Virus record (IMG/VR): IMGVR_UViG_3300023184_000449
Coordinates: 1-26,892 of that record
Reading direction: 5' to 3' (one strand)
Origin: a virus
Length of the DNA: 26,892 bases
In this document: positions 8,414 to 25,085 of the stretch, in pieces
Layout of the letters: the number at the start of each line of letters is the position of its first letter
How positions within the stretch are numbered: the first letter of the stretch is position 1
Made by a program: the position numbers and the translations under genes
The notes under the pieces: model-generated
What the model was told of the DNA's origin: nothing
Database searches by the model: none
What the model saw: the letters and a program-made list of their open reading frames with translations, nothing else

Positions 8414-8958
8414 AAATAGCAATTACAGGCGGAACTGCAGGAATTGGAAAAGCCCTAGGCGACGTTTACGAAGCACAGGGACACGAAGTACTAAGGTTAA
8501 GTCGTCGAACAGGACACAATATAGTTTCAGTTACAAAAATTGCAACTGCTATAGAGACTTGCGACATGTTTATTAACAATGCACAGCAAGGATATGCACA
8601 AACAGATTTACTATTTGAAATGGCTCAACGCTGGCAAGGTACTTGGAAAAAAATAATGGTCATTAGTACGATGATGACGCAAGAGCCAGTATGCTCACTT
8701 CCAGGATTGGATATGGATGCGTATAGATTACAGAAAGCAACGCTTGAAGAGGCAGTTAAGCAAATTAGAAATCGCAGGCTTGGTATTAGACTGTTTATCG
8801 TCCGGCCCGGAGACATTGCAACACGCCCGGGAAAAACAGTACCGCCAAGTGCAGATCTAACACATTGGGCACAAACATTAGTAGGAATTTTTGACCTAGC
8901 AGGCGATGATTTGATTATTCCTGATATTTCTTTAGGACCAATATTTAGGCCAACATGA
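8410..8958 (+). CDS. Short-chain dehydrogenase/reductase
   Basis: 182 residues, TTG start at 8410 chosen because AAGGGG lies just upstream and the reading begins with the expected beta strand. TGGTAGIGK (6-14) is the dinucleotide-binding TGxxxGIG motif, NNAQ (56-59) is a variant of NNAG, S86 fits the catalytic Ser, YRLQK (105-109) is the catalytic YxxxK, and RPGDIAT follows. It is shorter than classic SDRs (about 250) but keeps all catalytic elements. It should be a Rossmann-fold NAD(P)-dependent oxidoreductase of unknown substrate. Its position between two radical SAM genes, with a 4-nt overlap on both sides, suggests one pathway. Confidence 0.88.
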   Translation: MKIAITGGTAGIGKALGDVYEAQGHEVLRLSRRTGHNIVSVTKIATAIETCDMFINNAQQGYAQTDLLFEMAQRWQGTWKKIMVISTMMTQEPVCSLPGLDMDAYRLQKATLEEAVKQIRNRRLGIRLFIVRPGDIATRPGKTVPPSADLTHWAQTLVGIFDLAGDDLIIPDISLGPIFRPT

Positions 8959-10112
8959 ATCCAAAAACATATTTAAGCAAGAAAAATTTTTGTGTGTTAC
9001 CTTGGACTGGAATGTATATCCAGCCAGATGGCGAAGTACGAAATTGTGCTATTGTTAAAGATGCTATTGGCAACATCAATAGCAGTGGTATACACGACAT
9101 AGTATTAGGCAAATTAAATCAAGAAATCAAAGAGGAAATGTTGAGTGATAGTTTTCCTAAGCAATGTTCTCATTGTCATAACTTGGAAAAAATGCAACCA
9201 AACAGTTTGTCACAAGTTAGCAATCGAGTCTGGTACTTGAAAGCTCTGCGTAATACAGATCTTGAATTATTTGACGATGCTAAAAACTTTAATCTTAAAC
9301 AACTAGACTTACGATGGCGGAATACTTGTAATTTTGCTTGTGTTTATTGTGGGCCAGATTTAAGTAGTGCCTGGGCAAGTGAGGTTAACCAACCTCAACA
9401 TATAAACGAAACAGCGTTAAAAAATTCAATTGAATACATTTACAACAACCTTTCTACTGTAGAGCATGTTTATCTGGCAGGTGGGGAACCGTTATTAATT
9501 AAAGAAAATTTAGAATTGTTAACTAGGGTATTACAGATTAAACCTGATATAGAACTACGAATAAATTCAAATCTTAGTATAATCAACAATAATATTTACA
9601 ACTTACTCAAACAATTTAAAAATGTGCAATGGACAATAAGTGTTGATAGTGTTGGTGCTGAGTTTGAGTACACACGATACGGTGGTAACTGGAATACCTT
9701 TTTAGATAATCTTGCCCAATTGTCCAAGGACTTTGAAAAGATTAATTTTAATCTAGTCTGGTTTATTTTAAATGCAAGTTCTATATTAGACTGCATTGAT
9801 CAACTACAGAGATTAGGATACCATGAGAATATGTTTGTAGTTAATCCATTGAACAGCCCGGTAGAATGGCATGTGTGTAATTTACCAGACTCTGAACTCG
9901 ATATAATACGCAACAAATTAGAGAAAAAACTTAGGGAATCTGATCCTGCCTATTCTCTTTACAAGTCACTGAAATTAATGTTAAACTACATTAATACACC
10001 GTTTGACAAGAACCTTGATAAAACATTTGATGTTCTTGCTGAATTAGACAACCGAAGAAAATTAGACAGCAGCAAAATTTTTACAAACTTATACACTCTT
10101 AAAGGAAATTAA
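8955..10112 (+). CDS. Radical SAM protein with N-terminal twitch-like Cys module (2)
   Basis: 385 residues, ATGA overlap with the SDR gene. The N-terminal module reads FCVLPWTGMYIQPDGEVRNC then CSHC (C13, C31, C71, C74). This is the usual look of a SPASM/twitch cluster segment, but it comes before the radical SAM core. The core has CNFACVYC (C125, C129, C132) and AGGEPL (175-180). The C-terminal about 120 residues are helical and lack further Cys clusters. The predicted chemistry is 5'-deoxyadenosyl radical generation. Substrate unknown; peptide, nucleotide and sugar substrates are all possible. Only 2 nt separate it from uvsX, with AAAGGA as the uvsX ribosome site. Confidence 0.9.
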   Translation: MNPKTYLSKKNFCVLPWTGMYIQPDGEVRNCAIVKDAIGNINSSGIHDIVLGKLNQEIKEEMLSDSFPKQCSHCHNLEKMQPNSLSQVSNRVWYLKALRNTDLELFDDAKNFNLKQLDLRWRNTCNFACVYCGPDLSSAWASEVNQPQHINETALKNSIEYIYNNLSTVEHVYLAGGEPLLIKENLELLTRVLQIKPDIELRINSNLSIINNNIYNLLKQFKNVQWTISVDSVGAEFEYTRYGGNWNTFLDNLAQLSKDFEKINFNLVWFILNASSILDCIDQLQRLGYHENMFVVNPLNSPVEWHVCNLPDSELDIIRNKLEKKLRESDPAYSLYKSLKLMLNYINTPFDKNLDKTFDVLAELDNRRKLDSSKIFTNLYTLKGN

Positions 10113-10114
10113 TT

Positions 10115-11236
10115 ATGGCAAAACCATTCGACGTAAGCAAATTTAGAAAATCAATTACAAAGAGCATTGACGGAATCTCAGTTGGCTTTACAGATCCAAC
10201 AGATTGGATCAGTACAAATAATTACGCATTAAACTATTTAATCAGCGGAGACTTTAACAAAGGTGTACCGCTAGGTAAAGTCACTGTATTTGCTGGAGAA
10301 TCTGGTGCAGGCAAATCGTTTATCTGTAGCGGTAACTTGGTGGCCAACGCACAAAAGCAAGGCATCTATGTTATCTTAGTTGATAGTGAAAACGCACTAG
10401 ACGAAAAGTGGTTACATGCACTGGACGTAGACACCAGTGAAGACAAACTTCTTAAACTTAACATGGCCATGATTGACGATGTGGGTAAGATGATTAGTGA
10501 GTTTGTTAAAGAATACAAAACATTACCAGAAACAGAACGTCCCAAGGTGTTGTTTGTGGTTGACTCGTTGGGCATGTTGCTGACACCCACTGACGTTAAT
10601 CAATTTGAAGCAGGCGACATGAAGGGCGATATGGGACGTAAGCCCAAAGCACTGGCTGCACTGGTTCGTAACTGTGTTAACATGTTTGGTAGTTTGAATT
10701 TGGGACTAGTATGTACTGCACACACATACGCAAGTCAAGACATGTTTGATCCTGATGACAAGATCTCGGGTGGACAGGGTTTCATTTACGCTTCCAGTAT
10801 TGTTGTTGCCATGCGTAAGTTGAAGTTGAAAGAAGATGAAGATGGCAATAAGATTTCGGAAGTCAAGGGTATCCGTGCCGCTTGTAAAATTATGAAAACA
10901 CGCTACGCTAAACCGTTTGAATCAGTGCAGGTAAAGATTCCGTACGAAGAAGGCATGAATCCTTACAGTGGGTTAGTTGACTTGTTTGAGGGCAAGGATC
11001 TGCTTAAAAAAGAAGGTAACAGCTTGGTATACACATTGGCTACGGGCGAAATTATTAAGAAGTTTCGCAAAGCCTGGGAACGCAATGAAGATACTTGTTT
11101 AGATCGTGCAATGGTTGACTTTGTTGCCAATCCACACCATAAGACTGCGGATGTAGAAGAACTAGAAGCGGCAGTAGAAGTCATTGTTGAAGACAAGCCA
11201 AAGAAGTCAATGAAGAATGAAAATAGTACGAGTTGA
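10115..11236 (+). CDS. uvsX: UvsX recombinase (RecA-like)
   Basis: 373 residues, near T4 UvsX (391). It forms filaments on single-stranded DNA and drives strand exchange in recombination-dependent replication and repair. Walker A is GESGAGKS (61-68) and Walker B is VLFVVDS with D150. GGQGFIYASS further on fits the L2/DNA-binding side of the RecA core. The acidic C-terminal tail is usual for the family. AAAGGA lies just upstream of the ATG. It is flanked on both sides by radical SAM genes, one of which overlaps its 3' end by 20 nt. That is not the usual neighbourhood of a core replication gene. Confidence 0.93.
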   Translation: MAKPFDVSKFRKSITKSIDGISVGFTDPTDWISTNNYALNYLISGDFNKGVPLGKVTVFAGESGAGKSFICSGNLVANAQKQGIYVILVDSENALDEKWLHALDVDTSEDKLLKLNMAMIDDVGKMISEFVKEYKTLPETERPKVLFVVDSLGMLLTPTDVNQFEAGDMKGDMGRKPKALAALVRNCVNMFGSLNLGLVCTAHTYASQDMFDPDDKISGGQGFIYASSIVVAMRKLKLKEDEDGNKISEVKGIRAACKIMKTRYAKPFESVQVKIPYEEGMNPYSGLVDLFEGKDLLKKEGNSLVYTLATGEIIKKFRKAWERNEDTCLDRAMVDFVANPHHKTADVEELEAAVEVIVEDKPKKSMKNENSTS

Positions 11237-16937: not shown

Positions 16938-18125
16938 GTGTCGAGTTTAATTAAAGAAGATAAGTGGAGTCAATTTGGCCATTACTTGGTGGGCAACGAT
17001 CCTACCCCACTGTACCATCCAAAATTGGCACTTGAGGCTAACCGTAATAATCAAGGCCAAGTGAGGTTTATATTTCACGACACTGTATTTGAAGCAGCCA
17101 ACCCCAAAATTGAACCAACAGAAACTTTGCTTGATCTATATATTCAACGGGTCCAACAACTTCGAGAAAAGTACGATTATATAGTACTACTATACAGTGG
17201 CGGAGCAGATAGTCACAATGTTCTAAAATGCTTTGAACATGCGGACGCAAAGTTAGACGAAATTGTAAGTTTTGTTGACTCTGGATATAAAAGTAAAGAT
17301 AGTAAAATTAGTTCGGAGATATATCGTGTAGCACTTCCTGAAGTAATTGAATATCAAAAAAAGTATCCTGAATGTGAGTATCGATTATTAGAAATTAGGG
17401 ATATACAACAAAAACTATTCGCTGATACTGCATTTAAGTTTGACTCCTATCAGGATATGTCGTACCACATTATACCTTTTGCAGTCATGCATTATTACGG
17501 ATTAAACTATATTAGCAAGTATCGGGATCTACATAATTCAGGCAAGCGTGTGTGCGTGTTACATGGAATAGATAAATTAAAATTACGTAGCCGACCGCCG
17601 GAAAACAAATGGCACTTTTACTTTGATGACTTTAGTAGTATGTTTGGACAGAAACACTATTTTAGAGAATATCCAATTTATGACGAATTTTTTTATTGGA
17701 CTCCCGAAGCACCATTAATCACTATTAAGCAGGCCCACATTGTATCTCGATATATGGATTATTTAGACAGTATAAAACAAGAAACTCCTTATAGAGCCAA
17801 TGAGCGTGTAAATACCATTTGGCGCAAAAGCGGAACAATTACCAATTGGGAGTATTTTAATCATATCATTTATCCTTTTTGGCAACAAGGAACCTTTTCA
17901 ACAGGCAAGACATTTGAGAGTAGGTTAAGCAATGCCAGAGATGATACCCTATCTCGTAGTCCAGACGAAATAATGACAATCTATAAGAAAGGTGTTGCCA
18001 AGACTTTGGTGCTAGCCAAACAAACCGGTAACCAACTAACACCTAACTCGCTCTCCAATTCGCCGGACAATCAGACATTAATTGGACTAAAGTCCATGGA
18101 AGCGGCATCGCACTATATAGAATAA
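16938..18125 (+). CDS. PP-loop ATPase (N-type ATP pyrophosphatase fold) protein 1
   Basis: 395 residues with a GTG start directly after the previous TAA; no good ATG lies nearby and coupling explains the missing ribosome site. YIVLLYSGGADSHNVL (81-96) contains the SGGxDS PP-loop that binds ATP and releases pyrophosphate in adenylation enzymes (QueC, asparagine synthetase, TilS and relatives). No glutaminase domain is present. The rest is rich in Tyr and Phe and matches no member I can name. It likely activates a carboxylate or amide for amidation or ligation. A similar enzyme lies on the minus strand at 23204-24304. Confidence 0.8.
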   Translation: MSSLIKEDKWSQFGHYLVGNDPTPLYHPKLALEANRNNQGQVRFIFHDTVFEAANPKIEPTETLLDLYIQRVQQLREKYDYIVLLYSGGADSHNVLKCFEHADAKLDEIVSFVDSGYKSKDSKISSEIYRVALPEVIEYQKKYPECEYRLLEIRDIQQKLFADTAFKFDSYQDMSYHIIPFAVMHYYGLNYISKYRDLHNSGKRVCVLHGIDKLKLRSRPPENKWHFYFDDFSSMFGQKHYFREYPIYDEFFYWTPEAPLITIKQAHIVSRYMDYLDSIKQETPYRANERVNTIWRKSGTITNWEYFNHIIYPFWQQGTFSTGKTFESRLSNARDDTLSRSPDEIMTIYKKGVAKTLVLAKQTGNQLTPNSLSNSPDNQTLIGLKSMEAASHYIE

Positions 18126-19283: not shown

Positions 19284-20021
19284 TTATTTTAATTGTGCTC
19301 TAAAAGCCACTGTGACTCTTGGCTCGGTGGTCCATACGGCAGCAGGTCGTGTGGTATGTAGAGTACGCCCGTCGTAAGCAATAATCCGTCCTGGAACAGG
19401 GCTTACAATTTTTTCGGCCCATCCTAGATCAAAATTTCTGCGTTGTGCATCAGTATCAACAACTTGAAATTGTTGTTGGTCACCAGTTGCACGATCTGAA
19501 TAGTAAACACATTCAGCAAACCAGCTGGGATACCATGCCAAGTTAGCAACATAAAGAATGGTAGCAGTTGTTGCATCATTTAAGTCTGGAGTATCTCTGT
19601 GTACTCCGTGGCTGTGTTTGATCGTTTCTTGATACTGAGCATTGGTATAAACACGCCAACCAGGTTCTAGTCCGGGTATTGCAGTTTTTGCTTTCAAATT
19701 GCCCGGTATGCCTTCTGGGTAGCCAGTTAGTTTATAACAGGAGCCTAGGGATTTATTGATAGATTCCCACAAGGTATTAATAACTCGATGACGTGCTTTT
19801 AAATATTTGTCATCTGCGGCAAGTGCGATACGTGCCATACTAATACCATGTACCGCCAATGGATTTCGATGTGGGTAGTCTAATCCATCTTGTCTTGGTA
19901 CGTAAGTCTCTACGCTTTTATCTTGTTTATATTGTATGTGCCAGGTTTGGTCTAGTAAATAGTCCCAAATCTGTTTTCGCAATGTTTCTGGGACTGCATC
20001 GTCAATAACTTTAATGTTCAT
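19284..20021 (-). CDS. 2-oxoglutarate/Fe(II)-dependent oxygenase
   Basis: 245 residues on the minus strand. HRD at 141-143 (in HGVHRDTPD) supplies the HxD iron ligands, H222 (in DGRTLHTTRP) the distal His and R235 (EPRVTVAF) the 2-oxoglutarate-binding Arg. The spacing is right for the cupin-type 2OG oxygenases of prolyl-hydroxylase style that are abundant in phages. The N-terminus VIDDAVPETLRKQIWDYL is also typical. The substrate may be a protein, glycan or nucleobase; it is unknown. A TAAATACTAT box abuts its ATG. Confidence 0.87.
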   Translation of the reverse strand: MNIKVIDDAVPETLRKQIWDYLLDQTWHIQYKQDKSVETYVPRQDGLDYPHRNPLAVHGISMARIALAADDKYLKARHRVINTLWESINKSLGSCYKLTGYPEGIPGNLKAKTAIPGLEPGWRVYTNAQYQETIKHSHGVHRDTPDLNDATTATILYVANLAWYPSWFAECVYYSDRATGDQQQFQVVDTDAQRRNFDLGWAEKIVSPVPGRIIAYDGRTLHTTRPAAVWTTEPRVTVAFRAQLK

Positions 20022-20032
20022 ATAGTATTTAA
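20022..20032 (-). promoter_or_regulatory. T4-type late promoter box abutting a start codon (minus strand)
   Basis: Read on the minus strand: TTAAATACTAT then ATG (20021). This matches TAAATACTAT of the T4 late consensus and leaves 4 nt between TAAATA and the start codon. Confidence 0.6.
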
Positions 20033-20058
20033 GTGTTGTCTAAATACAACAAAACAAT

Positions 20059-20087
20059 TTGCACTCTAATGGTATCGGTGCTACAAT
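20059..20087 (+). promoter_or_regulatory. Sigma70-type promoter, upstream copy of a tandem pair
   Basis: TTGCAC (20059-20064), 17-bp spacer, TACAAT (20082-20087). The sequence GGTGCTACAATAGAA is shared exactly with the copy 100 bp downstream. Confidence 0.7.
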
Positions 20088-20158
20088 AGAAACAAGTCGA
20101 GTAATTGGCATCGTTTGGTTACAGAAAACAACGTGTTGTGCAAAAACAACAACCAGAT

Positions 20159-20187
20159 TTGCAAAGAAATGGTGTTGGTGCTACAAT
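20159..20187 (+). promoter_or_regulatory. Sigma70-type promoter, downstream copy of a tandem pair
   Basis: TTGCAA (20159-20164), 17-bp spacer, TACAAT (20182-20187). It is the nearest promoter to the large structured RNA and tRNA-Asp. Confidence 0.7.
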
Positions 20188-20189
20188 AG

Positions 20190-20646
20190 AAGTAAGTTAA
20201 GTAATTAACAACGTTCTTTAAAAAGTTGAGTCGTTTTGTAGTAACCCGAGAGGGTTGCTATTTTAAAACACATTTGGGGTTACCAGACCCGTTAGTGGCA
20301 TTGGTAGAAGTGAATTGGTACCGGCGGGTGCCCACTTGCTATCAGTCATGAAGCCGAGACTGCTTGAGTTTCAGAAAAGCGGCGGATCGTCTGGCAGTAA
20401 TGATCGTGGTGACTTGGCCTCGCAAGCCAAGCAGAATAAGATCCACAATGATTCCCCGAGCGTGTTTTAAAATAGTCTTACAAGATTATTGATAAGTGTT
20501 TGAGATGAAAAATAGGTATCGTCGGCAGACGTGTCGACTATGCGGGCCTAACTGGCGTGGAACAGGTCCTAATATAACTAGCCATACGCTGTTGCCGGGA
20601 AGCCCCCGACGCATAAATTGGCACTCAAACATTTTTCAATAATTTT
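20190..20646 (+). ncRNA. Candidate large multi-domain RNA abutting tRNA-Asp
   Basis: This gene-free stretch contains nested complementarity. There is a leader hairpin TAGTAACCC-GAGA-GGGTTGCTA (20239-20260). Domain A is closed by ATTTTAAAACAC (20260-20271) with GTGTTTTAAAAT (20462-20473), perfect 12 bp and extendable to 14. Inside it are AAGTG/CACTT around GGTACC-GGCG-GGTGCC (20309-20338), CAGTC/GACTG (20343-20362) and CTTGGC/GCCAAG (20413-20431). Domain B is closed by 20482-20504 with 20624-20646, about 22 pairs with one T-T mismatch and two G-U. It holds GGGCCT/AGGTCC and ATGCG/CGCAT. The final helix base (20646) is directly before tRNA-Asp. The pairing far exceeds chance. The family was not recognised. 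Confidence 0.72.
20212..20224 (+). promoter_or_regulatory. boxA-like antitermination element
   Basis: CGTTCTTTAAAAA, about 18 nt after the expected transcription start of the second promoter, resembles rRNA-leader boxA (core GCTCTTTAACA; GTTCTTTAAAAA-like forms occur in betaproteobacterial rRNA spacers as I recall). It would suit a long untranslated structured transcript. The upstream duplicated copy lacks it. Confidence 0.4.
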
Positions 20647-20721
20647 GGTCTCATAGTATAATGGTCAGTATAGCGGCTTGTCACGCCGTTGATAGGAGTT
20701 CGATTCTCCTTGGGACCGCCA
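20647..20721 (+). tRNA. tRNA-Asp (GTC)
   Basis: GGTCTCA/TGGGACC acceptor, anticodon loop TTGTCAC, TTCGA T-loop, G discriminator, encoded CCA. Confidence 0.95.
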
Positions 20722-20976: not shown

Positions 20977-21200
20977 AACGTTCCAGCGTCACTGGATAGT
21001 CTGACCCAGACGATGAGAAGTGCTGTGACAAGCACGGGTGGTTCTGAAACGAAAAGTTTCACACAGAGGCCATGATAGAACATGGATTGTATGTGCGGTT
21101 CAACCTAACCGGCGTTGGCAATACGAGAACGGTCCCTGTCGGGAAGCGGGTGGAGGGTGTAAGTGATGAATAGACTAGTTGGGGCAACTTGACGAAATTT
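20977..21200 (+). ncRNA. Candidate structured RNA between tRNA-Tyr and tRNA-His
   Basis: Gene-free and made of a chain of perfect short hairpins: TCCAG/CTGGA (20982-20996), GTCTG/CAGAC (20999-21011), GTGCT/AGCAC (21020-21035), GAAAC/GTTTC (21046-21060), CCATG/CATGG (21070-21085), TCCC/GGGA (21133-21144), and AGTTG/CAACT near 21178-21190. It follows the tRNA-Tyr CCA with no gap. There is no long closing helix, so the case is weaker than for the other RNAs. The segment 21200-21243 looks like a promoter for tRNA-His. Confidence 0.45.
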
Positions 21201-21215
21201 CTGATACACTATAAT
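21189..21215 (+). promoter_or_regulatory. Possible weak promoter before tRNA-His
   Basis: TTGACG (21189-21194) and TATAAT (21210-21215) are separated by 15 bp, shorter than ideal. Confidence 0.35.
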
Positions 21216-21243
21216 TACCGCCGGGGGGCGCCAGAGCATTTAT

Positions 21244-21318
21244 GTTGAAGTTAGTTTAGTGGCAAAACCGCGGGTTGTGATTCCGCTATCATGAGTTCGA
21301 TTCTCATACTTCGACCCA
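21244..21318 (+). tRNA. tRNA-His (GTG)
   Basis: TTGAAGT/ACTTCGA acceptor with an additional G at -1 facing C73, the His identity element; anticodon loop TTGTGAT; encoded CCA. Confidence 0.94.
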
Positions 21319-24886: not shown

Positions 24887-24889
24887 GTT

Positions 24890-25085
24890 AAATATAGTGT
24901 TAGGAGTGCGAAAAAATTTCACTAGCCAGAAGCCTAACTGCTTGGGAAAAGTATGTTTCCTTGTTCTGCCTGCAACCTGAAAGGGAAGGACCGGGCGGCT
25001 CCCGGATCAGCATAGAACAAGGAAGGGGACGACGATTTAGAACCCCTTTAAACGTGTAGCAGTATTCTTAACACTTATTTTTTTT
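24890..25085 (+). ncRNA. Candidate structured RNA filling the gap between tRNA-Trp and tRNA-Arg
   Basis: AGTGTTA (24896-24902) pairs with TAACACT (25069-25075), extended by AAATA/TATTT across one bulge, giving a closing helix of about 12 bp. Inside, TTCCTTGTTCT (24957-24967) is the perfect complement of AGAACAAGGAA (25014-25024), an 11-bp helix capped by CCGGG/CCCGG (24991-25005). AGGGG/CCCCT flank 25024-25046, and AGTG/CACT lie near 24905-24923. A run of eight T (25078-25085) ends exactly at the first base of tRNA-Arg, so it may also act as a partial terminator. No known family was recognised. Confidence 0.72.

Follow-up and report, generated by a model that had tools for sequence, protein, structure and literature searches.

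The window analysed here, 26,892 bases of the DNA of an IMG/VR virus, contains 22–23 tRNAs between 16.6 and 25.2 kb. Ahead of one of them, tRNA-Asp (GUC; 20647–20721, found by ARAGORN and the Rfam tRNA model), lies a region at 20190–20646 that the initial annotation described as a single large RNA of two domains, A and B. Comparative sequence analysis indicates that it instead holds two separate, previously uncatalogued noncoding RNA genes of very large uncultured phages, RNA-A (20258–20475) and RNA-B (20482–20646). Both follow a leader with two tandem promoters, a 5'-terminal hairpin and a boxA-like element; tRNA-Asp is the first tRNA after them, and all of these features are on the plus strand.

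The whole region folds at −156 kcal/mol, with a z-score of −6.8 against dinucleotide shuffles; domains A and B taken alone score −5.8 and −4.1, and in all three comparisons no shuffle folded as low. Both of the long-range helices noticed initially are present in the minimum-energy fold. Domain A has a long helix of 14 consecutive pairs plus 7 more, with an inverted repeat at 20258–20279/20454–20475 (22 nt, 86% Watson-Crick), and the outer helix of domain B, 11 + 11 pairs with one mismatch, ends at 20646, the base before the first base of tRNA-Asp (20647), as had been noted. The sole open reading frame of at least 50 aa within both domains is a 51-aa TTG-start frame at 20315–20470; in relatives, this stretch has insertions of any length and covarying pairs and shows no codon conservation, in agreement with the noncoding reading. 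A covariance search of 20000–20660 against Rfam 15 found no family at E ≤ 5, nor did searches of homologue loci, six at the gathering thresholds and twelve at E ≤ 1. The GOLLD and ROOL models matched in none of these searches, so that by the Rfam models neither RNA is GOLLD or ROOL. RNA-A also had no match among the Rfam models of self-splicing group I and group II introns.

RNA-A and RNA-B as separate structured families

Homologues of RNA-A were reached through a neighbouring protein (19284–20021, minus strand) that resembles phage endonuclease V and led to two related contigs of the same layout. A short motif common to these three loci gave more loci, and a refined motif gave 84 IMG/VR stretches, from uncultured contigs, mostly fragments, of up to 383 kb, with about 55 distinct RNA-A sequences after removal of duplicates. 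Another window protein (16938–18125) provided no route to relatives. At one locus (L012) the first motif had matched by chance within a coding gene; all other homologues share one core. RNA-A is 174–277 nt long in the family, and its core consists, in order, of a long helix P1, GGUUACC, P2, P2b, the variable arms P3 and P4, GCAGUAAUGA, P5, P6, GUUCC and the return strand of P1. The median length of P1 is 24 pairs; a few members that stand alone, away from tRNA arrays, have a short P1.

The window RNA follows the consensus P1–P6, including the conserved GGTTACC and GCAGTAATGA. Its P1 arms (20258–20279 and 20454–20475) keep 21 of 22 alignment pairs. The 5' arms of P2 (CCAGAC) and P2b (CCGTT) lie at 20283–20293, and the 3' arms of P2b (GGCGG) and P2 (GTCTGG), followed by the conserved GGCAGTAATGA, at 20381–20403. 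P2b is fully paired (5/5), P5 has 6 of 7 pairs, and P6 is present with a different loop; the CCAGAC/GTCTGG pairing of P2 is a hand reading, as the automatic alignment places gaps there.

A MAFFT alignment of 36 RNA-A sequences was compared with a structure written by hand from one member (L114), under which 88.2% of the alignment cells pair. Changes on both sides were found for 54 of the 65 pairs, 18 of them in P1 alone, and the covariation score was 0.483, versus 0.179 for shuffled and at most 0.115 for slid partners; taking the structure from a sequence in the set favours the score over the slid one, but such a bias is far too small to account for a gap this wide and for so many two-sided changes. 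This strong covariation, together with the lack of an Rfam match, agrees with the initial view of an undescribed structured RNA beside phage tRNAs. Unpaired bases are strongly conserved as well, with 21 invariant alignment columns.

The covariance model built from this alignment, R1, finds the window RNA at 20254–20479 with 138.5 bits, and the corresponding RNA-B model, R2, covers 20482–20644 with 147.3 bits. Because the window was used to train both models (it is one of the 36 R1 sequences), these scores are not independent evidence, and the case for its membership is made by its fold, its paired columns and synteny. R1 also detects copies outside the alignment, some of them close to training members: L166 (216 bits), L165 (150), L015 (107), L044 and L048 (94 each), L053/L070 (70) and L013 (63), with L164 and L003 within the range of 63–216 bits. 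The model E-values come from a short calibration and are rough.

RNA-B homologues were sought in the fetched loci with 20476–20646. RNA-B is about 165 nt long and has an outer helix, GGUAUCG and CGGG motifs, inner hairpins and a tRNA directly after it. An alignment of 14 sequences, with the consensus structure chosen by RNAalifold, has two-sided changes at 21 of 33 pairs and a covariation score of 0.605, compared with 0.221 for shuffled and at most 0.12 for slid partners. The R2 search returned 22 full copies and one cut by a contig end; in 19 of the 22, the next tRNA starts between −3 and 23 nt past RNA-B. Elsewhere RNA-B precedes tRNA-Arg (L004, L010), tRNA-Cys (L093, L096, L102, L116, L132, L141), tRNA-Glu (L018, L035) or tRNA-Ala.

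The two RNAs were seen side by side only in the window, L135 and L159, and, with a small insert between them, in L164. In six loci (L002, L003, L004, L005, L007, L010), RNA-A is followed not by RNA-B but by a shorter, different element, probably an H-type pseudoknot as judged by eye. One RNA-B copy is present in 11 of 26 large phage records, two of which lack RNA-A. Since the two RNAs occur apart, the model of one RNA with two domains was rejected, and RNA-B is regarded, from these sequence comparisons, as a second family separable from RNA-A.

Several other conserved elements were seen near these RNAs. Between tRNA-Tyr and tRNA-His, the window has a third conserved noncoding stretch (20977–21244), similar in 35 fetched loci, with motifs GGTCCCTGTCGGGAAGCGGGTGGA and TATAATTACCGCCGGGGG, two-sided changes at 16 of 47 consensus pairs and no significant match to Rfam; stretches of this type lie immediately upstream of RNA-B in several phages. 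A structured intergenic stretch between tRNA-Trp and tRNA-Arg (24887–25085; z −2.9) has a motif in common with RNA-B (GCCTAACTG..GGAA.AG). A conserved tRNA-like element (GTCCC..GGAATCCACGC..GGGCAGTGAGTAGG..), apparently without an anticodon arm, follows RNA-A or tRNA-Asp in L108, L111, L063, L010 and L004. Hairpins of 55–80 nt of the form CCATATAAAAACACATT...AATGTGTTTCTATATGG, with a variable interior and a stem resembling P1 of RNA-A, lie flush before tRNA-Met or tRNA-His in L002, L004, L005, L007 and L010, L007 having as many as three. In a 320-kb phage record, the tRNA region encodes a permuted tmRNA (L102:3150–3572, minus strand; Rfam RF04321, 104 bits). Farther away in the window, a radical SAM/SPASM protein adjoins a RecA-like gene (8955–10112 and 10115–11236).

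Distribution and genomic contexts of RNA-A

Exactly one copy of RNA-A is present in 20 of the 26 large phage records (120–383 kb) and none in the other six; many of these records were fetched by a match to the core pattern, which biases the fraction and leaves the copy number unaffected. One locus (L075) has two RNA-A in tandem. With 6 of the 26 records lacking RNA-A and 15 lacking RNA-B, neither RNA is universal. No match to the window, L004 or L114 RNA was found by blastn among the cultured phages of INPHARED, and the core pattern was absent from GTDB contigs. R1 found no credible copy, 8.2 bits at best, in PA5oct and Phosso, whose terminases (52–53% identity) place them among the nearest cultured relatives. 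The window terminase is 58–79% identical over its full length to those of 14 of the 22 large records searched, with one more split. Given the shared terminases and the absence from cultured phages and GTDB, the distribution looks like that of a clade of large uncultured phages, in which RNA-A would be kept as a single-copy gene.

RNA-A occurs in two contexts. In the first, that of the window, it follows tandem promoters and a leader, and a tRNA comes next, often within 0–7 nt. In the second, seen in about 20 phages, RNA-A lies away from tRNA arrays, mostly behind its own promoter. These promoters mostly match at 11–12 of 12 positions and are near P1; many of their −10 elements end 5–6 nt before the extracted fragment, so roughly 8–10 nt before P1. 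Often a further promoter serving a small protein gene lies right after P1, and in L125, L146 and L149 it overlaps the 3' end of RNA-A. No conserved protein partner was found beside the stand-alone copies, the downstream genes differing among phages; a 127-aa protein recurs beside RNA-A in L092, L097, L104 and L139. Immediately upstream of the stand-alone RNA-A of L097, L104, L139 and L163 is a conserved GGGTTGTAACTAAAGGATACGAAGCGAGTTTAGAGACTCGGCCTAAG element, probably the 3' part of another RNA. Mainly because of this second context, RNA-A is probably an independent trans-acting RNA and not a leader.

The same observations bear on two other readings. RNA-A and RNA-B might be mere processing spacers that punctuate the tRNA-array transcript for nucleases and have no role after release, which would suit the position of RNA-B flush with tRNAs and the small 55–80-nt hairpins, of unrelated interior, in the same position before tRNA-Met and tRNA-His. 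The strongly conserved unpaired bases of RNA-A, the single copy per genome and the independent RNA-A genes make this very unlikely. Alternatively, RNA-A could act against a host defence or nuclease as a decoy or inhibitor, as the strong, early-type promoters of the stand-alone copies and the mosaic swapping of peripheral hairpins between phages (seen by eye) might suggest; however, no target or mimicry was found, the core is conserved more strongly than expected in an arms race, and we consider a decoy improbable.

The promoter, hairpin and boxA-like leader

Two tandem sigma70-like promoters precede RNA-A in the window, each with a TG before its −10 element and each matching at 9 of 12 positions in our scan. 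The upstream one (20058–20087; −10 TACAAT at 20082–20087) sits within a direct repeat of 83 nt with 76% identity. After this promoter comes a degenerate version of the 5' hairpin, read from the sequence as GTCGA-GTAA-TTGGC (20096–20109), in which pairing is kept through changes on both sides. The second promoter (20158–20187; −10 TACAAT at 20182–20187) has a predicted transcription start at about 20194. In relatives, such tandem promoters are spaced about 82–104 nt apart. A 5'-terminal hairpin with a GNRA loop, GTTAA-GTAA-TTAAC, boxB-like in position, follows at 20196–20209; it begins 8 nt past the −10, the commonest spacing in relatives (41 of 52). Next comes the element CGTTCTTTAAAAA (20212–20224), which we take to be boxA-like from its resemblance to the rrn boxA of E. 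coli; the likeness lies in TTCTTTAAAAA at 20214–20224, at a fixed distance from promoter and hairpin. Transfer RNAs and structured RNAs follow the leader, as in an untranslated operon. This leader with its tandem promoters, and the single copy of RNA-A per huge-phage genome, were unforeseen in the initial annotation.

A scan of IMG/VR for the hairpin and boxA pattern returned 86 stretches with 59 distinct sites. At 52 of the 59, a promoter matching at 10 or more of 12 positions has its −10 ending 7–10 nt upstream (at exactly 8 nt in 41), as compared with 23 of 2000 random positions (1.2%); the window promoters, with just 9 of 12, fall below this. The search pattern did not include promoters, so their enrichment at these sites is independent support for the leader. 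A tRNA lies within 1.5 kb downstream of 52 of the 59 sites, and 57 are within loci of at least five tRNAs, so that the promoter-hairpin-boxA arrangement recurs at the tRNA arrays of dozens of large phages. In many of these arrays there is no RNA-A behind the leader, and leader and RNA-A are therefore separable modules. In five loci (L029, L039, L054, L073, L074) a different conserved stretch (GATGTAAAGTAAGCAGGCGTACCACGCTAATAGGTTGCGTGA) follows the leader in RNA-A's place; R1 finds nothing in the records of L029, L039 and L054. A pattern search of GTDB genomes for a host whose rrn leader has the same hairpin and boxA gave 4 scattered, unrelated matches. Protection of the transcript's 5' end might be all that the hairpin does.

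Where RNA-A is linked to the leader, boxA and P1 are 20–38 nt apart in 29 of 30 members, and in this interval the window has a hairpin, P0 (20238–20261; initially given as 20239–20260), that overlaps the first bases of P1. The sharing of CTA between the two, pointed out in the initial annotation, was seen again and recurs, with differing sequences, in most leader-linked relatives: in 22 of 33, six or more nucleotides of the P1 arm can pair with upstream sequence, compared with 23% for shuffles and 24% for swapped arms; the P1 starts used here were assigned automatically, and a few are misplaced. P0 is missing from the stand-alone members and is thus a feature of the leader; perhaps its overlap times the closure of P1.

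Such an overlap could also be the switch of a cis-acting leader of the tRNA operon (a riboswitch, attenuator or put-like antiterminator), with RNA-A placed, as in many phages, between promoter and first tRNA. Against this stand the roughly 20 phages in which RNA-A is not near tRNAs and, in several, is immediately followed by a new promoter, the lack of an intrinsic terminator at the leader/RNA-A site and the many arrays with a boxA leader and no RNA-A; we regard a cis-acting role, like that of a decoy, as improbable.

Proposed operon and comparison with known systems

We consider it probable that this region opens an untranslated RNA operon in a huge phage and that the operon's antiterminated transcript would yield RNA-A, RNA-B and the tRNAs, with RNA-A acting in trans. 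While the families, their structures, the promoter-hairpin-boxA module, the position flush with tRNAs and the single copy were established by sequence analysis, we infer antitermination, the processing enzymes and trans action. From the two tandem host-type promoters, host polymerase would produce a transcript opening with the GNRA hairpin and the boxA-like element, which, by analogy, would recruit the host NusB/S10 antitermination complex of the rrn type and so let polymerase cross the untranslated RNA free of Rho termination, as in rRNA operons. RNA-A and RNA-B would be made next, each closed by a long outer helix (about 24 bp in RNA-A), and then the tRNAs. Cuts by RNase III or a similar enzyme within or close to the outer helices, and by RNase P where the tRNA begins, would release RNA-A and RNA-B as stable RNAs. 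RNA-A would then act in trans during infection, as a folded RNA or an RNA-protein particle; trans action seems most likely because about 20 phages carry RNA-A as an independent gene. As to the end function, our first guess, and a doubtful one, is binding to a factor, from host or phage, involved in translation or RNA metabolism; a particle comes second.

The kind of RNA is known, since GOLLD and ROOL are also structured phage ncRNAs by tRNA arrays, and they are common but unexplained; the present analysis adds at least two families, with covariance models. No description of RNA-A, RNA-B or the leader arrangement was found in the searched literature, to which subscription papers mostly did not belong, and to that extent they appear new. 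GOLLD (Rfam RF02032) is a structured ncRNA of phages and prophages, of unknown function and often by tRNA arrays, and ROOL (RF03087) lies near tRNA islands of phages. RNA-A and RNA-B differ from GOLLD in lacking a match to its model, in being found here only in uncultured large phages and in being much shorter (174–277 and about 165 nt, as against more than 800 nt for many GOLLDs); ROOL likewise has no model match or detected relation to them, and RNA-A is about one third of its size (659 nt for one ROOL). GOLLD forms a homo-multimeric and ROOL a homo-octameric nanocage. That RNA-A is an ornate RNA of this kind, self-assembling into a multimeric particle, would fit the shared setting of noncoding, structured RNAs at phage tRNA arrays (PMC12286853) and the GNRA-type tetraloop hairpin that many members have (by eye), a hint of tertiary contacts; in view of the missing GOLLD and ROOL matches and the shorter length, it is unlikely. 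The raiA motif RNA is a free-standing structured ncRNA of similar size (a 205 nt construct, solved as a monomer; PMC12286853). In contrast to the phage-borne RNA-A, it is bacterial, and as RNA-A matches no Rfam family, the two have no detectable relation.

The proposed operon resembles the leader region of bacterial rRNA operons. Those of E. coli have boxB, boxA and boxC immediately downstream of promoter P2; boxA by itself brings in the antitermination complex, and a leader-trailer helix longer than 17 bp is required (PMC10250234). The phage locus likewise has tandem promoters about 100 nt apart, a small hairpin and then a boxA-like element, followed by a long helix that encloses a structured RNA, and by tRNAs; P1 of RNA-A is comparable to the leader-trailer helix of pre-16S RNA. 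It differs in being phage-encoded, in enclosing RNA-A and not 16S, and in having its 5' hairpin at the very start of the transcript. The likeness in architecture is strong, and by analogy the same factors may act on it. This suggests that phage tRNA arrays are transcribed with an rRNA-operon-like leader, which would account for the escape of long untranslated phage operons from Rho. It is conceivable, although we hold the idea only tentatively, that huge phages have a small-scale equivalent of the rRNA operon in which phage-specific ncRNAs replace 16S and the host's rRNA-making machinery yields a trans-acting particle; if so, host antitermination and folding machinery would be turned to the production of an abundant phage RNA particle working in trans.
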